From Amyelois transitella (taxonomy: Eukaryota; Arthropoda; Insecta; Lepidoptera; Pyralidae), in NCBI RefSeq assembly GCF_032362555.1, contig NC_083507.1, positions 9,675,001 through 9,739,000 on the forward strand: a DNA stretch of 64,000 bases, read 5' to 3'. Shown piece after piece: positions 1-62,700 of this stretch; the first letter of the stretch is position 1, and every line of letters begins with the position of its first letter. The translations under genes were made by a program, and so were the position numbers. The notes under the pieces are model-generated. The model saw nothing but the letters and a program-made list of their open reading frames with translations, searched no databases and was not told the DNA's origin.

Positions 1-3000
1 ACCATTGTCAGTAACATTTACTTTTGACACAGTATAATTGTTAGTCGTAGAAATTTCAGGCACAGATGAGGATTGGGATATCGCGGAGGCCACTGTTTCG
101 TCGCTAGAGTAATTTACATAAGGATTTTGATGACTTGTATTGTTATCATTTATTGCATATATTCCGTTGTTTGTTCCTGATTTCGGATTGAAAATAGTTT
201 CATTTGAATGCTTTTCATTTTCTTTAGCAATTATTTCTGTTGTCATGATATTTCGATTGGTCGTATTTGAAGTTTGTGAAAGTTGCAGTGTTCCATTTTT
301 AATATAATTAGTAGCGTTTTCTTTGTCACTACTTTCTTTCTTTACTACTTTTGAGGTACTACTTTCAGTCAATGTCTTGTTCGCAGACAAACTAGAATGG
401 TTTGACGTTTGTAATTCTTGTTTGTTTGGGGTTTCTGTAACATTTCTTGGGTAAACGTGATCAATGATATGCTTAGAATTTGTAATATTTAGTGGTTTTT
501 CACTATTCATATTTATAATTTCTTCGCCGCCAGTCAAATTTTTTATTGGATTGTTGCTATCTGGCATGAATGAAGATTGGGATACCATTGCAGCTTTTGT
601 CCCGTTCCCCGAGTAATTCTTCAAAGAATTTTTATTATTGGAGTTGGTATCATTGGTGGAATTTCTTTTGTTTTGGCTTATTAGCTTATTAACATGATTA
701 TTATAACTTATTGTGGACGTGTTATTTACAGGTTTTGGGTCAGATGTACTTTGATTTGTACTGGTGGTATTAGATATCACAGCTGTCAATGTTTGATCAT
801 CACTGGGACTGAATGTACTGGTTGGGTGTAACACTATGATATTTTTCTTTGATACTGCATCACTTAATTTATCGAAACGCGATGAATCGTTTGTTTTAAT
901 TTGTGAAATTGAAGCATTAGATAGAGTTTCATTGAACACTGATAATAATATTGTACTTTTAGCATGCTTATCATTGTTACGATTGATTTGTGGTGTTAGT
1001 GCATTTTGGTCTGATATTTCACTGCGTGATTGCACTGTTGTATTATGAATATATTTTTTTGTATTATTTGTATTAACGTAAGTTTTTTCGGGAGAAATTG
1101 CGGAGGCTGTATCATATTTATTAATTGATGGGATTGAAATATTATTTAACGAATTAATAATTGTTTTTTGTGGCGATGTCATATTATTTATAGTTTTTGA
1201 ACTTTTGTCTGAGTATTCAACGTCATTGTTAATTTTAGGCAGCTGATGTTTATCGATGTCAGTTGATTTATTTGTATTGTTTAAGCTGCTCAATTTATTA
1301 TTACTTATATTTTTTGATATAGGTTCTGTATCCAACGATGATAAGGAATTATTTTTACTAATCTGAAACAAGATAAGATTACGGTTTAAGTTAGAGTTAT
1401 TGACGGATATGGCTTCCGGAATAGTTTTATTTTCATTTAATTTTGTCTCGTTCCATTTATATTTTTTTTCATGTGTTGTGTTTGTCATTAAGTCATTAAG
1501 TGGCAGATATTTGTCATTTTCATTCGAAATTGTGTCATTTTTAAAGTGCACTGGAGAAGCAATGGATTTTTCATCTGCGGAAGTTTGCTTTGATGCTGAC
1601 TTTATTGAACTATTTCGTACTTCATGTACTGTTTGATTTTCAGCGAAGCTTATATTATTGATTCCTTCGATTGATTCTGGAATATTTGTTTTCATATCCT
1701 TATGTTGAGAAATATTACTCTTATCTGATTTGTTTTGGCTGCTGATATTATTTAAGATGGAGATATTACTATTTGAGATAATTGGCACCGGCGTTGATGT
1801 ATTTTGTTTGTTAGTAGTTTGAAATAATTTACTGTTATTCAAATGAGACGCATTAATATTTTGCGGCTTCAGTTTTGGTTTATTATGTAAAAAGCTTGTT
1901 TTATTACGTCGTTCCTTAGAGTTTTCTAGAATCTGATCTGTTTTGAAATTATCTGCAATTATATCAAGATTATCACTTGGCAAATTTAATTTTCCTACGT
2001 TCGTTTCATTTGTCTCTGTGGAAATCGATGCTGGGCTGAAAGTTATCATGGTATTATTTGTATTAGTGTGCGATAAAATTGTTTTTGGTGAATCCTTATT
2101 AGCACTTTGTAAATGGTGTACACTATCTTTAGACGAAATCACTGAGCTTTCATTTGTATATATATGTGATAATGTAGTATTTAAATTTTTCGTCTCGCTT
2201 TGACTCCTCAGCTTAGATTGTTTGTTTATAGGAGTTGCTTCTCTCAAAATATTAGGCAGAAGAGTTGAATTATTTCTACTAGCGTTTATTCTCCGGCACT
2301 CTGTATCATTATTCTGGGACACAGTAGGGTTTGAATAGTTTCCATTGAAATTAGAATTTTGCCACCCTGTGTTATTATCTTGAGATACAATAACTTTTGA
2401 GTACGACATATTAGCCTTTTCAGTTGTGTCGTTTTCACCATATTTATTTGTGTTATATAAATTTGTGGATATAGTTTTAGTGAGTTTATCATTCGTTTTA
2501 TTAGTAGTTTGTACTGTTATAATCTTTTGTGAGGTATCATTACTTATTTGTGATAAAATAGTAGTGTCTAGTAGTGACGGTACTATTTTATTTTCTTCAA
2601 TATTTGTTCCATTTGATTCATTGAAAGTATGTAACGTAGGTTGATTCCATTTGATGGTGTCCAGCGGAATGTTTATATATTGACTCGATTTTATTGTGCT
2701 ATTATTATTCCCTGATGCAGAAGGAATTGTGTTGTTATTCAAGATTGTGGAAGAAGTCTTTGTTATCAGTGGACTTAATGGTGCATTGGAGTAAGTTATA
2801 TTTCTGATTAGAAGTTGCGGCACTGTAGATTTAGTATTATTTTTATTTTCATTTGTGGTGTTAAACACGTTTGCGGTCCCAGGTTGTGCTTCTGTACTAT
2901 TTATAACAACTTTTGTGTCATAAAATTTATCGGAATTTGATGATACAGTTGAATTAAATTTCATTGTAAAATTTGCATGAGTTTTGTTAGATTCGCCAAA

Positions 3001-6000
3001 GTAATTGGGACGTGTAGTGTCAATATACGATGGTGATATTGTTGAATTTTTTGCAAATGTTTCTCTATTTTGTACTAGTGGTTCTGTATTTTTCATGAAA
3101 CTGGTATTTGAATTAGTTACATTACTGTTTATTAATTGTGTTTGATTCAGTCCATTAGAAGGTTTTGCCAAAGTTTCATGTTTAAAATTTTGGTTTGAAT
3201 TTATGGGATCTGAGAACATAGAAGTTGATGTTGTATTCATACTTGGTCTCATTATGTCAATTATTAGTGGCTGTGAATTTGGTTTCTTCTTTCGTGCACT
3301 ATTTCTATCCTTCGATTTTCCAGTATCAGATGATAAAGTATTATTAGAAACAGTCTCATTAATACCAATAGAATTTTTTGCTGCAGGAAAATGATCTGGC
3401 TTTATAGATTTGTTACTATTAGTATTAATATTAAATTCATCAGTAGGCATATTCAGTATTGTTTGATTTCCCGTATGGATGTTGTCTTTTGTTGTCTTTG
3501 AATATATCCATGAAATATTTGCAGGACGATTGTGGGAAGAAAAATTTCCTGAATTAATGCCTTTAAAATTAGTATTTTGAGTTTGTGATATTGAAGCTGA
3601 GATATCATTAGAATCATTCACTGGAGTCAAAGAAGTACTATTATTAGATAGTAATGGGAATATTTTGCTTTTAGTAAGATGTCCAACATTTAAAGCAACA
3701 GTATCTTTACTGGTTTCTGGACCTTTTTCATTTACTTGGGGAGTAATATCAGTGATATTAATTATCGAAGATGAAACATTCGTAAATGATCTTAAATGTG
3801 CTAAAGTGGTATTGGAATGTAAATCAGTGTTGTTAATATTGTGGTATTGTTGATTTGAGTTATTCTTAAAAGCTTTTGCAAATTTGGATGTTGTCTTATT
3901 TCGGTCTTCATTAGTGAATGGTTTTATTTCACTATCATTAAACTGATTTGGTATATTATTAATGCTGGATGTGGATATATTAAATGTTATCAAAGCTGGT
4001 TGGATCTTAGTATAATTTGAATTTTTAATTTCGGAAGTGGGTTGAACTGATTTATTGCTAAACATAGAAGAGGTGTTATTTACTCTGGTAGGTGACATTG
4101 TGGAAGTAGAATTCATTATTGGCATTTGTCGAACACTTGCATTATTGGCACTTGGACTATTATGTGAATCATGTGTTGGTACTGAAATATCCTTCGAAAT
4201 ATTTTTTTGTGACGTTATTCCACTTGTATTTTTCAAATTTTTTATTTTGTTCTTGTTGGAACTATTTAACCCTTCGGTTGTTATGTTTCGTTCTTTCATT
4301 TTAATATTTACAAGGTGAGTGGAACTATCGTTTTCCTTTGCAGACTTGTGTGATATTTCCGGTTCTTCGACTTTGGATACCATTAATGTTTCTGATATAG
4401 GATTTGTTAGATTTTGTCCTGTTTTTATATCGTTCACAAGATACTTATTATCAAGATAATTTACGCTTAAGTTTCTATCTCTCATCTGTGGAATTGTATT
4501 ATTAATAACATAATTATTAGAATCAAGTGGCTTCGACTCGTTTGTACTCACCGATGATTTTTTATGAGGTGAAGTATTGAGTGTTTTCTTTGGATTGTTT
4601 TGATCATTGTAGGTAGTTGAATTCAAGGAAGCAGCGGCCTGAGGATCTTCATTGCTTGTAGTATCCTGTGACGTTGATGCCGATGAAACATCGTTCTTCA
4701 TTGTGACTGGTGTTGAATTGGCGTTTAGGTTGATGGAACCACCGTTTTGTGGATTTGGTGGTGTGGTAGAAATTGGTATAATATTATTAGAAGCAGAAGT
4801 TTTCGTTAGAGCAACAGCAGTCGCTTGAGATTTGTTATCATTTGAAGTTGCATTAGTTTGTGCTGTAGCTGATGCGCTTGAGGATGGATCTTTGGTATGA
4901 TTGTCGGAGTTTGTAGTACTTTGTTTCGGTGATGAATTTTCTAACGTCTGCGGTATTGTTTCGTTTTTCGATGGATTTGTATCAATTGGAACAGTAGCAT
5001 TGTTGCTTTGTGATTTTGCATTATTCGGAGGATTAGATTCAGTAGTAGGCTTAGTTATATTTTGATTCGTTGTTTGACTATCTGAAGAGGGCGTTGTATC
5101 GTTTTCTTGTGGATATGTTGCATTTGCGCTTGGCGGTTGTGGTTTTGTTTTGTTAGCTATATTAGATTCAGTGGTAGGTTTTGTATAATTTTCACTCTGT
5201 GATTGACTTTCTAAAGAGGGCGTTGTATTATTTACTGGTATATTAGTGCTTGGAAGTTGGGGTTTTGTATTGTTGTCTGTATTAGATCCAGCAGTAGGCT
5301 TTGTTAAATTTTGATCCGCTGAGGGACTGTCTGAAGTGGGCTTTGTGTCATTTTTGGGCGGATTGCTATCTGTTGGAATAGTACTATTGGCGCTTGGTGG
5401 TTGCGGTTTTGTATTTTTAGCTGTATTTTTTCCAGATGCAGGCTTTGTTGTATTTTGACTCGGTAACGAACTTTCTGAAGCAGGCTTTGTTGTATTGTCA
5501 GGCGGTTTTTTATCTCTTGTACTAGAAGTATTAGAAGGTTGAGATGTACTACTATTCAGGGGCTTCGTTGAATTTGTAGGCATTGTTGCATTTTGCTCCG
5601 ATCTTGTATTTTCTTTCTTGGGCTTGGTAAAATTATGTATTACTTTAAATTCTAAAGGTGGAAATGTACCCTGTGGTATGATTGTTATTTTGGTTGTAAT
5701 TTTTTTTCGCTTTCCCTTCTTTTTATTATTTTCGCTTGTCGCCGCTCTTCGTATTCTCTTACCTGAGTCACAAGAGGAGCATTCTTGTTCATCCGGAACA
5801 TACTGCACTGGTTCCGTTATCACTTCTTCATTTGGATTGCTTTGCGGCGATACCGATCTCGTTTTTCTGTCGAGCGGGTCTACTTCCAGTACTCGAGCAT
5901 TTCCAGAGTCGAACTGAAAAAATAAATAATATGAGTAATTTCATTCATGTATTCTTTACTTATAATATATTAGTAGAAGAGTAAATTCTGTACATCTGAA

Positions 6001-7185
6001 ATATAAATAAATATAAAGCATACGGCGTTACTAGATTGAGCGCGAATTCAAAAATGTAGTTTGAAGAACATCGTCTGTTTGTTAGTATCTTGAAGTATTA
6101 CGCAAAATCTACCAATCGAATGACGATAAAACTTGGTACAATTTTACTTAGCCTCCTGGGCACAACACTGTATACTTTTATTGGAACAAGGTACACGACG
6201 GCGTGAGGGCGAGAAAAAGTTAGGTATTTAACTATAAATACCTTTAGTTAGGCATAACACATAGTCTTTAGAGGGCTAGAGGGTAAGTAGCACCCAAGAA
6301 GTTGTGATTTTTCTTTAGAATCGATATTTTCCTAAAAAATCCCTAAAAAAACTGATTTAAAAAAATGAAAGTATTGTTTTGTAAAGAAAGACTTTTCGAA
6401 GATTTTTTTAGATTTGTTTTTTCGCCATTTAAACCAAATTCCATTAAATTAAGATTTGAAGTTTTTTTATAAATAACAATATAAACATAACGAGTTGAAT
6501 ACAGAACTCGGTTTAAGAAAATAATGTACCTACACAAGTTCCAGGTTCCTTTACTTAATACAAGTGTGAAAGTATGTGTTTCGAACACCAAGAAATGTGT
6601 CACTTTAGGACTGGGATACTCTTACAAATAAATCGAGTATTATTTAAATAAGTAAATCTCACATCACATTGTATTAAAAGATGCATTTTGACAGTTAAAA
6701 ATATTTAAATCACCTCAGCTAGTCAAAAGCCTCCTCTGAGGTCAAATTGAGGGAAAGAGAAAACTTTATTGATTCATTATTATTTAACATTTTAGAGTCT
6801 TAAATAATTATTTTGTTAACATCCGAATGTCTTTTTCTTCTTCCTGGATTTAGTCCTGGTTACGTCGTCACTTCTCTGAACAGACCTTCGCAATCTGAAC
6901 CTCAACCATATTGGATCATTACACACCCTGTTGCCTGCATGAGCAGGTTTCCCTGAACATAACAGTATCGGTATGTTCTCAAAGTAATATAATATGGGCT
7001 AGATAGATAGATAATTGAACCTGTGCTTCCATGCGCATAAAGCCTCAAAGCATCCGAATGTGTAAATGAAATAAAAAAATAAATTTTCTTTTGGCATTTG
7101 ATTTCTTACCAATAACAATGAAAAATAAAACCCTCACCTGTATCACACACACACTCGCTACTAAAACCACCAGACACCACCCCAT
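1..7185 (-). CDS. Mucin-like, N-glycosylation-rich secreted glycoprotein (3' end beyond window)
   Basis: Two exons are visible on the minus strand: 7185-7138 (16 codons, from ATG) and 5913-1, joined in phase 0 (donor CAG|gtgagg, acceptor tttttcag). I checked the frame in triplets from 5913 to 1 and found no stop, giving 1,971 codons and at least 1,987 residues in all. Exon 1 (MGWCLVVLVASVCVIQ) is a typical signal peptide. The mature N-terminus is acidic, with a CSSC motif near residue 66, then a basic stretch with RIRR (possible furin-type site) and a Lys-rich patch. The rest is Asn/Ser/Thr/Pro/Lys-rich, almost free of Cys and Trp, and crowded with N-X-S/T sequons (about two dozen in the ~250 residues encoded around 4830-5630). 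Degenerate internal repeats occur. No known domain is recognised. A secreted or surface mucin-like role is inferred from composition only. The C-terminus and any anchor lie beyond position 1. Confidence 0.85.
59..1110 (-). repeat. Long-period (~168 aa) degenerate coding repeat
   Basis: The segment beginning at 59 is recognisably similar at DNA level to the one beginning at 563 (period about 504 bp). Both encode an S-Q-S-S-x-x-P motif preceded by an N-Y-S segment. A weaker third match (T-A-S-A-I-S-P) lies near 1100. This suggests growth of the exon by duplication of a long unit. Confidence 0.45.
2290..2410 (-). repeat. Pair of 23-aa coding repeats
   Basis: Two units about 69 bp apart encode a Y-S-x-x-x-V-S-Q-x-N-x-T motif. 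The outer one carries the only Cys codon I saw in the long Asn/Thr-rich part (2296-2298). Confidence 0.55.
4930..5480 (-). repeat. Degenerate coding tandem repeat, ~40-48 aa, about four units
   Basis: Inside the mucin-like exon, four successive units start with N-x-T-K-P (NTTKP, NLTKP, NYTKP, NITKP), continue with T-x-E/G-S-N and N-x-K/T-K-P-Q-x-P-S-x-N, and close with an NDT/NNT-P-S-x-x-S-Q segment. Units differ in length and are degenerate, so this is old protein-level repetition rather than a DNA satellite. Confidence 0.7.
6120..6190 (+). other. Candidate orphan signal-peptide exon (possible exon 1 of gene A)
   Basis: An ATG opens 23 codons beginning MTIKLGTILLSLLGTT, a credible signal peptide, and ends at a weak donor (AAG|gtacac) in phase 2. 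It lies antisense within intron 1 of the mucin-like gene. Splicing straight to gene A's first recognised exon at 9461 would shift frame and hit a stop quickly, so a missing Cys-pair exon would be needed, and I could not find one. It may be a chance ORF. Confidence 0.25.
6825..6957 (-). repeat. SINE-C fragment
   Basis: The reverse complement matches the SINE-C body (GGAAACCTGC, CAGGCAAC, GTGTAATGATCCAATA blocks) and its oligo-purine GGAAGAAG tail. It lies in intron 1 of the mucin-like gene. Confidence 0.6.
7000..7013. repeat. (TAGA)n microsatellite
   Basis: Three and a half uninterrupted TAGA units. Confidence 0.8.
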
Positions 7186-7222: not shown

Positions 7223-7230
7223 CATATATA
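7223..7230 (-). promoter_or_regulatory. Candidate TATA box of the mucin-like gene
   Basis: TATATATG on the minus strand, 38 nt upstream of the start codon at 7185. If used, it gives a 5' UTR of only about 10-15 nt. This rests on position and sequence alone. Confidence 0.35.
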
Positions 7231-8654: not shown

Positions 8655-9460
8655 TAACTTTTCTTCGCTCCCGTCATAACAAAACAAACAATTTTTTTTG
8701 TTTCATCGTTATAAACAAACATCATTGCAAATCCTTACTTTTCATCAATATTGACATTTGTATAAAAGTATTCTTATCCACATTTATAAGCGGTCAAGAC
8801 ATTTAACGAGGCATGCGAAATCTCATGTCGACCTTCAGTCAAGCTTCGGCTATTACAGGAGCAATGAAAATATTTACTCGCTTGATTCGAAAGTATGTCA
8901 TTGTCAAAGCATTGCCCAACACTAGCAACTAAAGATCATTGCGGATTCCATAAGTAATCTACGGTAATAATAAATCAGTAATCAGATTTCCTTTTCCGCG
9001 CGCACGTGAAATTCGGAATCTGGTAATCAGCGTAATCGATGCAATTATACATGCGTCTGTTATGAATATTAATTCTTGGGTATATTAGCTTCTTAAAGAA
9101 ACATTTAAGGAAACTTTTATGACCATTTATACATATATCTTCTGTTACTGACAGACAACGTACAGCCGAAGTCGAAACTACTAAGCGTAGGGAGCTGAGT
9201 TATGACATGTAGGTTGCCTTGACCGTTAGTGCTAAGAAAGGATTTTAAAAAAAAAACCCATGCGATCGGAAGTTAACAGGACTTTCTGTTTTACGCGGGT
9301 GGAGCCACGGGCGTTCTCTAGTAACTTAATAAACTGAAAACATGATCGTTTCCGTCAGATTCGATTAACTTTCATTCAAGTATGTAGGTACGATACAATA
9401 AAAAAATAATAAATTAACACACCGGATTAAGTAACGAGATATTTTATTGTAATATTCCAG

Positions 9461-12400
9461 GGTATTCCAGAGCTGGACGTCCCAGGTATAGAGCCTCTAA
9501 GCCTTGGTCAGATCGCGCTGGCCCGCGGTCCGCAGGGCGCCAAGCTGACTGCCGTCGTCAACGATGTTAAGGTTCGAGGCCCGAGTAATTTCATCATACA
9601 GGAACTAAAGTGAGTTGATAGACCTTTTTTATACTAACATTCCACAATGATGAGGGTTCCACATTTATGTTAAACCGACGTGATCTGGTTAGAAGATATA
9701 TTCAGTCTACGTTTACGCACCGAACTGAACCGAAAAATTCATGATACAGGAACATAGATCCTTATAATCATAAATTTATTTATTTTTTATTGAAAATTTA
9801 AGGCACTTTAGAATAGAACCAGTTTAATTTAAATTAAATTATAAATAACTAGCTATGCCTGTAACATCGTCCGCGTGGAATTGTTATTTTGGGCATTATT
9901 GAAGTCCTCAATGATGAATAATTTTCCCCGTTTTTTTCCGTTTTTTTTTCACATTTTCCATTATTTCTTTGCTCCTTATAGTTCCTCGATAAATGGTTTA
10001 TTCAATGCAAAAAGAATTTTTCAATTCGAACCAGTACTTCCTGAGATTAGCGCGTTCAAACAAACAAACAAACTCTTCAGCTTTAAAATATTATAGTATA
10101 GATAATGGGCTACGATTTTTTATTCGGGTACCCCAACACTAACAAACATTTATTCAATATCTACTCACTGGGGAATACCTACTGGGAATGTAATGCCATA
10201 ATTTACATTGTAGCGGGAGCGATGATTCGGGCTCGACTCCCATAAAGGGAAGATCTTCCGCCAGGCTCGGTGTTATGCCTGGGGAACTGCGGCTCCGACG
10301 ATGTTGAGTCGGACGTTGTATTAATGCTCCAATCCGTGAAATCTTTGTTTGCGCAATTTTGATTCTTCGCTGCTATTGGCTGAGCGCGTCAATGTCCTCG
10401 TGATGATTGACAGTGTGTGTGTGTCATTAGTGATGTCGCTACATGTGATGTTTGTTTTTAATATCTATACTTGAATTTTTCAGGTCAGATCTTGACAAGA
10501 ACCGGTTCGACTTCAAGCTGTTGCTTCCGAAGCTGGACTTCGCCGGGAAGTACAAGATGGACATCCAAGTGCTCCTGCTGCGGCTACAGGGACGAGGGAA
10601 CATCACAGGCTCCTTCAGTTAGTATTATTTTCCATACTAATATGTTGAAAGAGAGAGTCTGTCTGTTACCCTTTGAAACACACAACTACCACACTGATTT
10701 TAATGAAATTTTATATAAATATAGTTTATTATCCGAAGTCAAATATAGGCTACTTTTTTTTGGAAACAACACAAGGGAACGGAAAAAAGGAATTTTAGTT
10801 TGACGCAGGCGGAGCTACAATCAGCTAAGATTCCAATATACCCGGGGGTTCCCGTAGAAATTTACGTAAGTATCAAGGTTGTTTCGTCTAGGAGCAAAAA
10901 TAAAAGTTACAAGTGATAAAATTCCTTAATAGTTATATGGCAAAAACGCGAATTAATTAAATAACAAAACATATGTGCTGTAACTCAACATAACTAAATA
11001 TAATTAGAAGACAATTAAATCATGTTTTACGTAGGATTTTCACAATGGTGGTACAAAATATATTGTGACGTTGCATTATACAAAAACAAATTTAACATAA
11101 CGTAAACTTGAAATCTAATTAGGTACTTGTAATGCTATGGTACGTTAATTTGATGCAACAAATGTTATAAAAATTCAAACAACAACATCGCTGAACGAAA
11201 TTATGTATGTTTATAATACATACGAGTACATATAAGTACTTAACGACCATTTCCTGGAGAGAGTACATATTTACACCTGCTACGACCCCTGCATACTTCT
11301 TTCACTTCATCCACTTTCATAACTATTTTCATGCAAGCTTCCTAAAGCAAAGCCTAGTAAACATAGCCTTAGTCTTGTGACAATCGCCTCTTTTTACTCC
11401 ATCAGGGATAAAGATATGATTTGTGAAACTATGTATGTTTTACAAGCCGCGTTCTATTGATATTTCAGGTAATTTTATTAGGTACTTGCATTCAGATATT
11501 TGCTTCCTACTATGTAACATCATAACGAGCACTATAATAACATTGTAGGTACATACTTGAAATCAGTAGGCAAGCACTCTTAAACTACGGGCTATAGTCA
11601 GGTATATTTATTTAGTAATAAGTTAAATAAACATCGTGAGGAAACCTGCACATTCAGGCAACTGGATGTGTAACCTTGATTGATCCAATAAGAGATAGAT
11701 TCCCCTGTAAATGTTGCGGAGGTCAGACGGTAGTTGCTTCGTGTAAAAACCTGACTCACCCAATCCTGGATCCATGGTCAAGGGCATACGACGGGCCCTT
11801 CAGAGTGGTGAGGATGCAACCGGGACTTATGCTAGGAGGAAGAAGCTTTATTTAGTAATGAATACCTAATGCTCGTATATATGGGACAAATCAAACAAAT
11901 TGAGTTACTGAGCTCCAAAGTAAGTCCGAAACATATGTAATAGTAATTTAACTGTACTGCAGTTTATAATAAAACTTAAATATATATTAGACATTAACCT
12001 GTTATGAAAAAATAAAATAAAAGAACAAAATACTTATCCGTGAACTTTGATCCAAATTGTAGATGTGAAGTCGATGGGACTTTCACAATTTCCTTACAAT
12101 GGTGTACATAAAGTACAAGGAATTGAAGCAAAGCTCGACATCAAAGCCCCTGTATACTTTTTTCGCTTCATCTACTTACATTACTCACTTCATGCAGTCT
12201 CGCCGGTTTAGGAAACATATGACCTGACTATTTAACCAGATCATCCGCAATTGGTATATTATTTATGTAGAATAAAAAAATAAATTGACACCTGATTATT
12301 GTCGGTTTGCTATTGAAATGCTATATTAGCATTAAGTTCATCTATTGTACCTCAATAAAGTTTTAAACAAATAATTGATAGAGTAAATAATATCTAAAAT

Positions 12401-14112
12401 TTACGCTAGAAAAGTAGGAAAAGCTACTTTTGCTAGTAAGACGTTAATTCAAATATAGGGCTCCAGAGACCAGTTGGCGACGAGTGGGGCGGCGAAGCGG
12501 CATTCCAGTATTGCGTGGAGTGTTGTGGCTTCACGCTGACAACATCGCGGTCAATACGCGAGTTACAAACTCACTACTAAAATATTACTTACGTAACTAA
12601 CACTACAGGTGTAACACTCCTTATATACGAATATACACAATAATTAAACAAACTATAGTTTTGAAGAAATAGATCATTCATACGATAAGTAATTATAAAT
12701 AAATAAAGAAAAAAATACACACATGCAAATGTTCGATCCATTTATGTATTTTCTAAAGTTTTGTTAGCTTCTACATTTTGAAAAATTATATATTGTAAGC
12801 TTTTAATAAGTATCGTGTGAAAATAGGGCACAGAACTTAAGATATAAAAATTTTGCATGCAAAGGGGTTTTATTCCCTTTTTCTTTTCAGTATTGAGTAA
12901 GATGATTTTAAATATAATCCAGGGCAAGTGACTGCTTTGTGTTGTTTGATTCACCATTATAGAATATTCATATAAAACTGAAAAGTGGCATGTCCTTTAG
13001 ATCTGAACATGCACACAAAAACAACAATATTACAATCTCAACATGAGATATAAGACGATGGATTACAAAGATTCAATTATAGGGGCAGCTAGTAGAAGAC
13101 AAGTTGAGAAAGTTACTGACCTTGACCCCGATGTATTTAACCTTGAAGAAACGTGTTTTAATGAAAATACAGTGTAATTCACATATGCGGACAGCGTACA
13201 TACCATCAACATAACCATTCAAGTCATGAACACGCAATGTGTAATACCAATTGATTTGCACATAATTTTAGCTATTAAAACAATAGATACTTAAATAATA
13301 AAAAATAAACACGAGATCAATGATAATGATACATTTGCAAATGTAAACACGGAATTGGTTTCATTAAAATTACTGAATTATGTAAATAGCAAATTTACAT
13401 AATGCGTTATATTAACATTCGCATGTGTCAACATCCATACTAATGGATGCTTAGAGTACTGGGTTGTAATCTTAATCTATTGTGTTTAAAAATAACATTT
13501 GTTTTTTTTTTTGTATAAAACATAGGACATGTTGTATATATTAAATATAAAAAAAAATTTGGTTTGTGAATGCGTCTCTACGTAGAATGTTTGTGAACCA
13601 TATGGTCTATCAAGAGAGATAGTTTCTTGCTCTCAAATTTATGTATGTCCAGTTTTGTACCCTCTGCTTTAGGGCCTGGGGTTCGTTATCCATAATTTAA
13701 GTCTTTCTATTTTTTTTGTAATATACAGCCTTCATTATTATCTGGTTAAAGAGTAAATGTGTATTTATTTATATGTTATTCAATTTTAAAACCTTGTCAT
13801 TTTTATTTTTCAGAGGACTACGCATGCAACGTCACAATGAGAGGACACAAAGAAAAGCGCGGCGAAGATGAATACTTGCAGTTTGATCCATTCAGAGTCA
13901 AACTTAGGGTTGGTCAGTCCTCAATCTACTTAACCAACTTATTTGACGGCGATCCAGTCCTGGGACCCGCCACTAACAGGGTTATCAACGAGAACTCTCA
14001 AGTGTTCCTACAAGAAATAAGTCCGGTCCTAGAACGGAGCCTTGGGGAACTCTTCACCGAAATGGCAAATAAAATAACATCTAAGTTCACATATAAGGAA
14101 TTATTTCCTTAG
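9461..14112 (+). CDS. JHBP/takeout-like protein, gene A (5' exons not found)
   Basis: Recognised exons: 9461-9609, 10484-10617, 13814-14112. They join in frame (AA|G, A|AG) and encode 193 residues from GIPELDVPGIEPL to the stop TAG at 14110-14112. This matches the takeout/JHBP superfamily (secreted carriers of small hydrophobic ligands) from just after the Cys pair to the C-terminal helix. A normal member is about 245 residues, so the signal peptide, both N-terminal Cys and about 50 residues are missing. No Cys-pair exon is visible between 6190 and 9460. The last exon fuses what are exons 5 and 6 in genes B and D, so that intron is absent here. One Cys remains, in DYACNVTM. The open frame and intact splice sites argue against a decayed pseudogene over this part. 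It is either a gene with a cryptic or distant first exon, or a 5'-truncated copy. Confidence 0.82.
9848..10106 (+). mobile_element. Retroposon family D copy
   Basis: About 250 bp, clearly homologous to 51995-52232 (shared TCGTCCGCG...TTATTTTGGGCAT, GATGAATAATTTTCCCC, TTGCTCCTTATAGTT and TTCAATGCAAAA blocks). It ends in a CAAACAAAC...CTTCAGCTTT segment. It lies in an intron of gene A. It looks like the 3' part of a LINE or a related SINE. Confidence 0.65.
10198..10330. repeat. GC-rich block with two adjacent hairpins
   Basis: Unusually GC-rich for this region. CCAGGC (10261-10266) pairs with GCCTGG (10277-10282), and TCCGAC (10294-10299) pairs with GTCGGA (10308-10313). It lies in the intron between 9609 and 10484. 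I do not recognise the family. Confidence 0.4.
10620..10860 (+). repeat. Interspersed repeat family E fragment
   Basis: Begins just after the exon donor with ATACTAATATG...CTGTCTGTTACC and ends near CGCAGGCGGAGCTACAATCAGCTA, a layout common in lepidopteran retroposon 3' ends. Recognised by pattern only. Confidence 0.45.
11255..11350 (-). mobile_element. LINE 3'-end fragment (AYPxGK family)
   Basis: The reverse complement carries the conserved ...GAAAGAAGTATGCAGGGGTCG block of the LINE whose ORF ends in ...VVSAYPxGKxA. It is diverged and lies in intron 2 of the recognised part of gene A. Confidence 0.5.
11632..11850 (+). repeat. SINE-C body
   Basis: ATCGTGAGGAAACCTGCACA through CAACCGGGACTTATGCTAGG and GGAAGAAG, collinear with the full copy at 48018-48361. 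The tRNA-like head is missing. Confidence 0.65.
12080..12215 (-). mobile_element. LINE 3'-end fragment (AYPxGK family)
   Basis: The reverse complement resembles the fragment at 46602-46740 (GATGAAGCGAAAAAAGTATA block). Diverged. Confidence 0.4.
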
Positions 14113-59700: not shown

Positions 59701-62700
59701 AAATATTATATTCAAATATTCACTTAATTCATATCTAGGATATATAAAACATAAGATAATAAGATTTTGTTGTTAATGTATTTTTCACCATCTCCCACAG
59801 ACTTCTAGATAAGGTGGAAGGCCATGTGCCGTTCATAGCGCTGAGTTTCCTGATACGCATCATAGAAGCCATGGGCAACGCTGCATTCCTTACAGCTTCC
59901 TTCGCCATCATAGCCAAAGAGTTCCCCAACAATGTTGCCAGCATGTTTGTAAGTACACTTTAGAATATAATAACTAATCTGGATATCAAAACATGACGCC
60001 GAAAACGAAAGTAGAGAGGGAAAATGTCTGAAGGCGGACCTCGGGCACTGAAGCATTAGAAACCGGGAACACGCAAAAATGAGAAAATTGATAGAGAGCT
60101 CATGTCTATAAATCCTAAATAACCAAGAAATTCGAATATTCTCTAATGCACAGACATATATGTGGCATGTGCCTTTTATGTGGATAACGCCTTAAGCTAT
60201 CTAAGAGCAATGCACCATGTAATATTTTTAGAGCTAAGTAACGAAAAGTCAAATTTTCAGTTCTAGTACTTATTTCATAACTAATAGTGATTTTTACCGG
60301 CCGTGTTGCAATTTTATGAAGACTCGTTAACACCCCAAATTTTTACAATAACTTAAAATTAAGTATAGCGTGTAAGTGATTCAGTGAATAGTACAGTAAA
60401 AAATATACATTAAATTCTCCAAAGAGAAAAACATAAGCGCCTTAAGTTAACTCATAGCAATACAACATAAAGTATTTTGCTTTTAAAGTTAATAGTAAGT
60501 AATACATAACGAAAAATAACAGTTGTTAAACATACTTGAGAAAAGAAACATTTTTCTTACTTCTGGGTATATTTTTAAGGTTGGCAGCTCTACTTGTTAT
60601 TCACTAATCCATTGCAAATTTCGTTTCACATATTTAATCCAAACATTTCTCCTTTAACTTAAAATGTTACTTATTTTAGAACATCGTTCATTCAACAAGT
60701 GTCATTCCCCACAGGCATCACTAGAAACGTTCTTCGGGCTGGGTTTAATCGTGGGTCCCATGCTGGGTGGGACCCTATACTCGTTCGGGGGGTACACGCT
60801 GCCCTTCGCCGTGCTGGGCTCTGCGCTATTCTGTGCTGCCGTCATGAGCTGCATCGTGCTGCCGAGGTCACATGACGATGAGGACGTGAGGCCTACTGGA
60901 CGTAAGTTATATTGAACTGTTTCTTAATACTAATATTGTAAGTTATATTTATTATGATCATTCTCCTGGTTAGTCGTTACTCACGGTTGCGTCAACATCT
61001 TTTGGAGAGGAGGTGCTGAACTTATATTGTCTAAAACTCTTATTTATGTTTAATTTTTCGTACCCATTCAACTTCATATTTAATTACTTGTTAAAAAGTT
61101 TTCAGTTGATCGGTACCATTAATCAGATGGGAAAATGCAAAAAAAGGAAAGTAAACTGAATTCACTATACATTTCTTCCGTATATAAATAAATTCTCATC
61201 GGCTCCATTTTTCATAGCAACAATGTGGAACTTATTGAGGATTCCTGGCGTGCTGCTATCTGCATTCAGCATCATGGCCACCAGTTTGAGCATCAGCTTC
61301 CTGCAGGCGACCCTTGAGCCACATTTGAGACAGGTCAGTCTATTGTTCATCGTGGTGGAATGGCCATACCATGCGAACCTATGATGCACAGAATACGGCA
61401 CTTCCGTTAACGATTCTTCGATCTTTTTTAGTACCAAAATTTGTAACTTGGGAAGGAATGTAATCTTTGTATTTTGTGCTATAATGCCTCGAAATGGCAA
61501 GAAGGGCTCACCAGGGGATTTTAGTGGATAATCTGGCAAACTTAATGCCAGGAGTCACAGGAGTCGAGACCCAGGAGGCTGAGCCGTAAAAAGGCTTTAA
61601 CCTTCGTAAACAAAAAATATCAGCTATTATCACTAGATGAAATTAAGATTGAAAAGAAGCAAATCGGCATGGAAGCATCAAGTACATCGCAAATCTTTTT
61701 CTTCTGTAATGAAAATATTTTTTTTGATCAACAGTTCCAATTCTCTCCTATAATCCTGGGGCTGATGTTTGTCATCAACGGTGGGGTATACGCCATCTCT
61801 GCCCCAGCCTGGGGATGGCTGTGCGACCGCCCCACCATCAAGCAGAAATACGTCACTGTGATCGGCTGCGTGTGTATCTCAGCGGGCTTCCTCCTCATTG
61901 GTCCAGCGCCCTTCTTAAATATACCAACGTAAGTAAACATACATATATTACTTGCTTGAAGAGAGATAAGAATGAACGAAAATCGGTGATCAAATCGATA
62001 AATATCATGTAGGCGCAAAGTTAGGTTAGGATCCCCTGTAAGGGTTGCGGAGATCAGATGGAAGTCGTTTCGCGTAAAGTCCTCCTTGAACGAATCCAGG
62101 ATCATAGTCTTAAAGCCGCACCTAGTGCTCCTTTAAGTATAGACAATGTAACCTATCGTGTCGTTAACTATTCAAATCATATTTAGGGCGTTAGTCTCTG
62201 TATAGTGACCCTTGTGACCACAATCCTGGTGTTAATTACTCTATGCAAATGTCGTAGGCAGAGATACATAAAATATACCGCGACAAATCTTAATGCCAAT
62301 GATCACTTGGGTCGAATCGTCGAAATAAGTATTTGCTCTGATTATGTAGTAAGTGAGGAATTGTGAAAAAATATTTATTTACAATTGAGCGGCCTGTATA
62401 AATGGGATGCGCTAAAAGGCATAAGTTCAAATCCTACCTCGGCCATCTACAACAACTTGTTCTGAATTATTATCTAGTTGTTCGCCGCGGACTTAGACCT
62501 CGCGATCACTTTTAGTTTAAATACTGAGCAATGCTCTTGCGAAGAGGAAAAACATTGTTAGGAAACCTTCACATTCAAGCAACTTGATGGGTAAATCCAA
62601 TATAGGTTAGGTTCAAATCTATCTGCAAATGATGCTGAGGTCAGTCAGGATTTGCTAAAAATCTGACTCATCCAATCCAGGATCTTCGTCAAAAGGCGCA

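Follow-up and report, generated by a model that had tools for sequence, protein, structure and literature searches.

A gene for a giant secreted protein in Amyelois transitella, with signs of selection on its N-glycosylation sites and a candidate role as a coat or glue

The DNA analyzed here is a 64,000-nucleotide stretch of the Amyelois transitella genome, hereafter the window (C3:9,675,001-9,739,000 of a 327-Mb assembly in 33 contigs; negative positions lie on the same contig to the left of it). On its minus strand is a real gene for a giant secreted protein. Read through to its last exon, this gene encodes 5,823 residues, or about 620 kDa (mass without the first 22 residues). The sequons of the protein, Asn-X-Ser/Thr, show signs of having been selected for glycosylation itself, beyond mere Asn richness. 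A coat or glue function is likely, with silk as our best single guess at about an even chance.

The gene and its surroundings

The first-pass annotation of this DNA had joined a signal-peptide exon to a long minus-strand frame, and the junction stands: exon 1 (donor at 7138) meets exon 2 in phase 0 at an acceptor, TTTTTTCAG/TTC, lying just before 5913 (Table 1). The frame was described as far beyond chance. It is open from 5940 to 1 and, with adjoining contig DNA, on to -8171, that is, 4,704 codons; this extension excludes an end immediately left of position 1. The remaining two minus-strand frames hold 317 and 558 stops per 4,693 codons each, and at the lower of these rates a run of such length has a probability of about 10^-143. 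The signal peptide is hydrophobic by inspection and is also the most hydrophobic 16-residue window of the 5,449-residue reading introduced below, in agreement with a giant secreted product.

Table 1. Features of the giant gene (a slash marks the exon/intron boundary)
Feature	Position	Strand	Remarks
TATA-like box TATATATG	7223..7230	-	about 40 bp before the ATG; called from sequence, promoter role putative
Exon 1, coding part	7138..7185, ATG at 7185	-	16-codon hydrophobic signal peptide MGWCLVVLVASVCVIQ; phase-0 donor CAG/GTGAGG
Intron 1	5914..7137	-	1,224 bp
Giant exon 2	1..5913, on to about -10301 or to a stop near -10384	-	first 1,971 codons in the window
ECSSC (residues 60-64)	5770..5784	-	only CxxC of the reading; called from Cys positions
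Donor-like CAG/GTAAGA	5757..5765	-	last exon base 5763, phase 1; best of 633, score 11.4
RIRR (residues 69-72)	5746..5757	-	furin-like motif R-x-[KR]-R, occurring once in the entire reading
Mucin-like stretch (residues 108-340)	4942..5640	-	Pro/Thr/Ser/Asn-rich, internally repetitive; 20 sequons in 233 residues
Right-hand edge of the 1,716-bp array	1..128	-	first core module begins at 108
Exon 3 (last exon)	-10541 to -11748	-	about 400 codons, ends TAA; conserved; AATAAA at -11896

The giant form may end in either of two ways. A donor at -10301 (CAG/GTTGTA) would join exon 3 in phase, giving the full reading of 5,823 residues; alternatively, reading continues past this donor through a hydrophobic tail before meeting a stop, giving 5,449 residues with 397 sequons. 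The C-terminus that had been sought leftwards would be one of these two. The chitin-binding domain suggested for it did not turn up when Pfam was searched with the window part, a single unit, exon 3 and five core modules out of six. The full reading is rich in Ser (15.0%), Thr (14.5%) and Asn (13.4%), with a pI of about 5 and a GRAVY of -0.70; its only Cys are residues 4, 13, 61, 64 and 1222. Near-absence of Cys and Trp had been remarked on earlier, and the window part (1,987 residues with exon 1) indeed has five of each. The mucin-like stretch contains a 144-bp tandem unit (5241-5534).

Searches for relatives brought back no family. With the E limit at 0.1, Pfam gives no family for the window part, in keeping with the earlier failure to recognize a domain, and none is above cut-off for any of the segments just named. 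We attribute two matches below cut-off to chance: Ago_MID_bact (with the unit at E 0.031; at best 0.0092, in five of six module members) and SH3_YKFC_2nd (E 0.31 with exon 3). A single-sequence search of the PDB returned nothing at E up to 0.1, and the lone match of a PDB profile search, a sortase at E 1.8, is at chance level. Viral contigs searched with the module alignment gave 147 pattern matches, of which none was confirmed. The Rfam search of the window returned nothing at gathering scores. Because no relative appears above the Pfam cut-off or in the PDB, we assign the protein to no family.

The giant gene is flanked on both sides by a cluster of JHBP/takeout genes (C3:9,618,947-9,713,696, or about -56053 to 38696); of the 79 matches to JHBP-family exons in the genome-wide list, 25 fall there (9.619-9.714 Mb). 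This neighborhood is not a shown sericin cluster, which may speak against a silk function. JHBP-family exons at 9371-9613 and 13750-14109 on the plus strand, starting about 2.2 kb upstream, are divergent from the giant gene, and a shared promoter region is possible. Elsewhere in the window, 61546-61929 (plus strand) is probably an exon of a transporter from the major facilitator superfamily; its match (E 6e-8) falls just short of the Pfam cut-off, with 32.4 bits against 33.4. Contig C33 of the same assembly is the mitochondrial genome (15,205 bp), opening with tRNA-Met, tRNA-Ile and tRNA-Gln (other strand) followed by nad2, and a CGA start for COX1; we take this tRNA order and start codon to be those of ditrysian Lepidoptera.

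N-glycosylation sites and repeat modules

Sequons number 428 in the full reading, against 221±12 in composition shuffles and 237 for the reversed motif [ST]xN. Because repeats inflate this test, a non-redundant set of 3,195 residues is fairer, and it still carries 228 sequons where composition predicts 124±9. Three further properties of the non-redundant set point the same way. First, Asn is followed by x-[ST] in 49% of cases, against 17-28% when seven other residues are put in its place. Second, Thr is preferred over Ser at the third position (NXT:NXS 140:88 at T:S 434:454, p 1e-4). Third, Pro is avoided at the second: Ser or Thr follows three of 17 Asn-Pro pairs, while among the other 449 Asn the number is 228 (p 0.011); the corresponding fraction in the full reading is 3/26. 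Between the second module, R2, and exon 3, Asn is kept at 21 of 26 sequon positions and at three of 11 others (p 0.006), and 18 of the 26 are sequons in both. A 629-residue part of fibroin heavy chain (FibH) from the same genome has six sequons, against 9.0±2.6 expected.

These observations are signs of selection on glycosylation, the sites themselves being predicted from the sequence; N-glycans would occupy as many as a few hundred of them. Their spread is uneven. The figure of one sequon per ten residues proposed earlier is too high for the window part, which has 139, or one per 14; residues 108-340 come closer, at one per 11.7, and residues 17-136, just past the signal-peptide exon, carry only three.

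One half of the protein is unique; it is followed by six units in tandem and by a seventh module, diverged, which exon 3 encodes. The array, detected by TRF from -9422 to 128, is made of 5.6 copies of a 1,716-bp (572-residue) unit. It contains six module copies, R1 to R6, whose five spacings are 550, 572, 572, 572 and 572 residues. Exon 3 is 46-47% identical to the 375-residue core of the five units with which it was aligned (R6 was left out of the module alignment, which holds exon 3 and the other five). When the unit was searched against the genome, all seven of the matches listed fell in the giant gene; a query with the opening 121 residues of exon 2 found, at E up to 10, nothing but itself. 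Blastp without composition correction made the unique half look similar to the modules, and we set this aside as a likely effect of composition.

The protein sequence of the modules also shows signs of selection, dN/dS (NG86) being below 1 in all 21 module pairs. It ranges from 0.17 to 0.54 among R1-R5 (n=10) and from 0.24 to 0.28 in pairs with exon 3 (n=6), for which dS, at 1.6-1.9, is near saturation. Constraint is weakest in pairs with R6 (0.51-0.95, n=5), a module whose end is poorly aligned.

The frame, described earlier as uninterrupted, is so within the window, but one break was found outside it, at about -8168. There, a run of A (about -8165 to -8168) counts four bases against five in the two sister units whose sequence around it is the same; a fourth unit differs in sequence at this position. 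If the one-base shift is real, the gene may be decaying or unexpressed, a reading which the R6 ratios could also suggest and which we nevertheless regard as improbable. Beyond the break, the frame reopens for 711 codons to -10301, the 747-codon frame past the break keeps up the density of sequons, at 6.7 per 100, and exon 3 is conserved; even a real shift would cost the giant form only its last part. For these reasons, a recent event or a homopolymer error in the assembly fits better.

A predicted one-module isoform

We scored the 633 GT sites of exon 2 with an approximate donor matrix, under which the donor of intron 1 reaches 13.2. The best site, at 5763, shares its phase with the exon 3 acceptor (-10540/-10541), and their junction gives a protein of 468 residues: 16 from exon 1, 50 from exon 2, then one module. 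This predicted form has 31 sequons against 16.0±3.2, and none of 2,000 shuffles reaches 31. The -10301 donor, in comparison, scores 0.1, a value exceeded by 226 of the 633 sites; a better donor at -10363 (7.6) would put exon 3 out of frame, as judged by inspection. A second strong donor-like site, TCG/GTGAGT, is seen at 4546-4554 on the minus strand, in phase 0 and out of phase with exon 3.

A short, one-module isoform may thus be produced by alternative splicing. The first-pass annotation had noted neither this strong donor inside the window nor the unit array and exon 3, which lie mostly or wholly outside it. Because exon 3 is conserved as protein, we infer that the short form would be real and that the giant form would arise when the strong donor is ignored. 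Splicing at 5763 would yield the soluble 468-residue protein; read-through would yield the giant form, ending in exon 3 by way of the weak donor, or in the hydrophobic tail.

Coat function, silk relatives and alternatives

Amyelois transitella is a silk-making lepidopteran: exons of fibroin light chain lie on contig C20 (best E 2.8e-24, over cut-off), and the start of its own FibH is found on contig C17 (E 3.2e-8, 30% identity) in an open frame of 4,154 residues. This FibH start (C17:7,224,319-7,227,642) shows Ser/Ala/Gly-rich repeats with NAPVVIVEQGG blocks.

Could the giant gene be FibH itself, or a duplicate of it? A short signal-peptide exon followed by a giant repetitive exon is the arrangement of FibH, according to the portions of PMC9684489 that deal with it, and the repeat segment TFVVTTE can be likened by eye to the FibH N-terminal domain. 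However, in six comparisons with that domain (PDB 3ua0), 233 to 613 of 1,000 shuffles reach the alignment score. The start of the species' own FibH lies on a different contig, and the mature chain has a single Cys, residue 1222, after the N-terminal CxxC. Unlike FibH, the giant protein is not Gly/Ala-rich and lacks Cys near its C-terminus. We consider this identity most improbable.

Other silk proteins offer closer parallels. In the passages of PMC9684489 on sericins, repeats stand in tandem in large exons, Ser2 and Ser3 have three exons and two introns, and a Ser4 has 28.9% Asn; Y. cagnagella Ser4 is an example of an Asn-rich sericin. Like these sericins, as described there, the giant protein is secreted, hydrophilic and Ser-containing, with tandem repeats in a large exon behind a signal peptide; unlike them, it has 572-residue units and N-glycan sites that look selected. 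Its Ser content lies at the low end of the 14-62% given in the sericin tables of PMC9745057 and PMC9684489, and its mass exceeds those of the sericins listed in Tables 1 and 2 of the former and in part of Table 2 of the latter. With the silk mucins (Muc1/P150) it shares Ser/Thr-rich repeats and large size, Ek-Muc1 reaching 474 kDa in Table 1 of PMC9745057; it differs from them in having N-glycan sites over most of its length and in its three modeled exons, against 32 and 25 for Y. cagnagella Muc1 and Muc2 in the relevant part of PMC9684489. PMC9745057 lists silk proteins with their composition and their CXCX and CXCXCX signatures. Neither CXCX near the C-terminus, as in Ser1-type sericin, nor CXCXCX, as in silk mucin-1/P150, is present in the 5,823-residue reading. 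Since these signatures fail and the protein is a candidate called from its sequence, we describe its architecture as sericin-like or silk-mucin-like and leave membership unassigned. Passages of a review (PMC12976744) describe O-linked modification as the more prominent in silk, which counts against a coat built on N-glycans; excerpts of the same review and of PMC9745057 describe silk coat proteins as Ser-rich, with O-glycans more prominent. A literature search met no N-glycan-dense lepidopteran coat protein, and one may still be in print.

Of the identities first suggested, a mucin, silk or coat component fits best because the short signal-peptide exon, the tandem repeats in a giant exon and the short last exon are arranged as in some lepidopteran sericins; a hemocyte surface protein and an egg or cuticle coat stay rivals. 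The strongest competitor is a secreted or membrane-anchored glycoprotein employed elsewhere than in silk (hemocyte or gut surface, egg coat, cuticle), to which we give a lower but still substantial probability. If the weak donor is ignored, the tail CIWFFIIYTFLNIVHL, with about 10 further residues, is a possible single membrane anchor, second only to the signal peptide in hydrophobicity within the 5,449-residue reading. The missing Ser1 and Muc1 Cys signatures and the position among JHBP/takeout genes also favor such a role. Yet 5% of open 27-codon stretches taken at random from the region (1,192 of 22,730) contain a window just as hydrophobic, so that the tail may be an intron read through. 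In the parts searched, moreover, Pfam gives no domain above cut-off, whether chitin-binding, ZP, EGF or any other.

Our preferred interpretation, given about an even chance, is a repetitive glycoprotein secreted as a coat, most likely a silk coating of sericin- or mucin-like type or a comparable epithelial glue or gel. Being hydrophilic, the chain would stay extended and hydrated as a polymer brush, which would make it a sticky, lubricating and water-retaining layer around silk or an epithelium, and gene length would evolve by unequal exchange between units. We may also hypothesize, with a probability well below even, an 'N-linked mucin': a gel-forming animal protein in which a brush of hundreds of selectively maintained N-glycan sites stands in for O-glycans, its 16-kb exon being an intron turned exon (a giant exitron) that grew by duplication of the last-exon module, with splicing toggling between a one-module soluble form and a polymer of about 5,400-5,800 residues.

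The short/giant splice switch, as predicted, is sharply and cheaply testable. Genes of this kind are easily overlooked in annotation, because they are repetitive and consist mostly of one long exon. A coat-like giant bearing a signature of selection on N-glycosylation would widen the known makeup of natural glues and gels.
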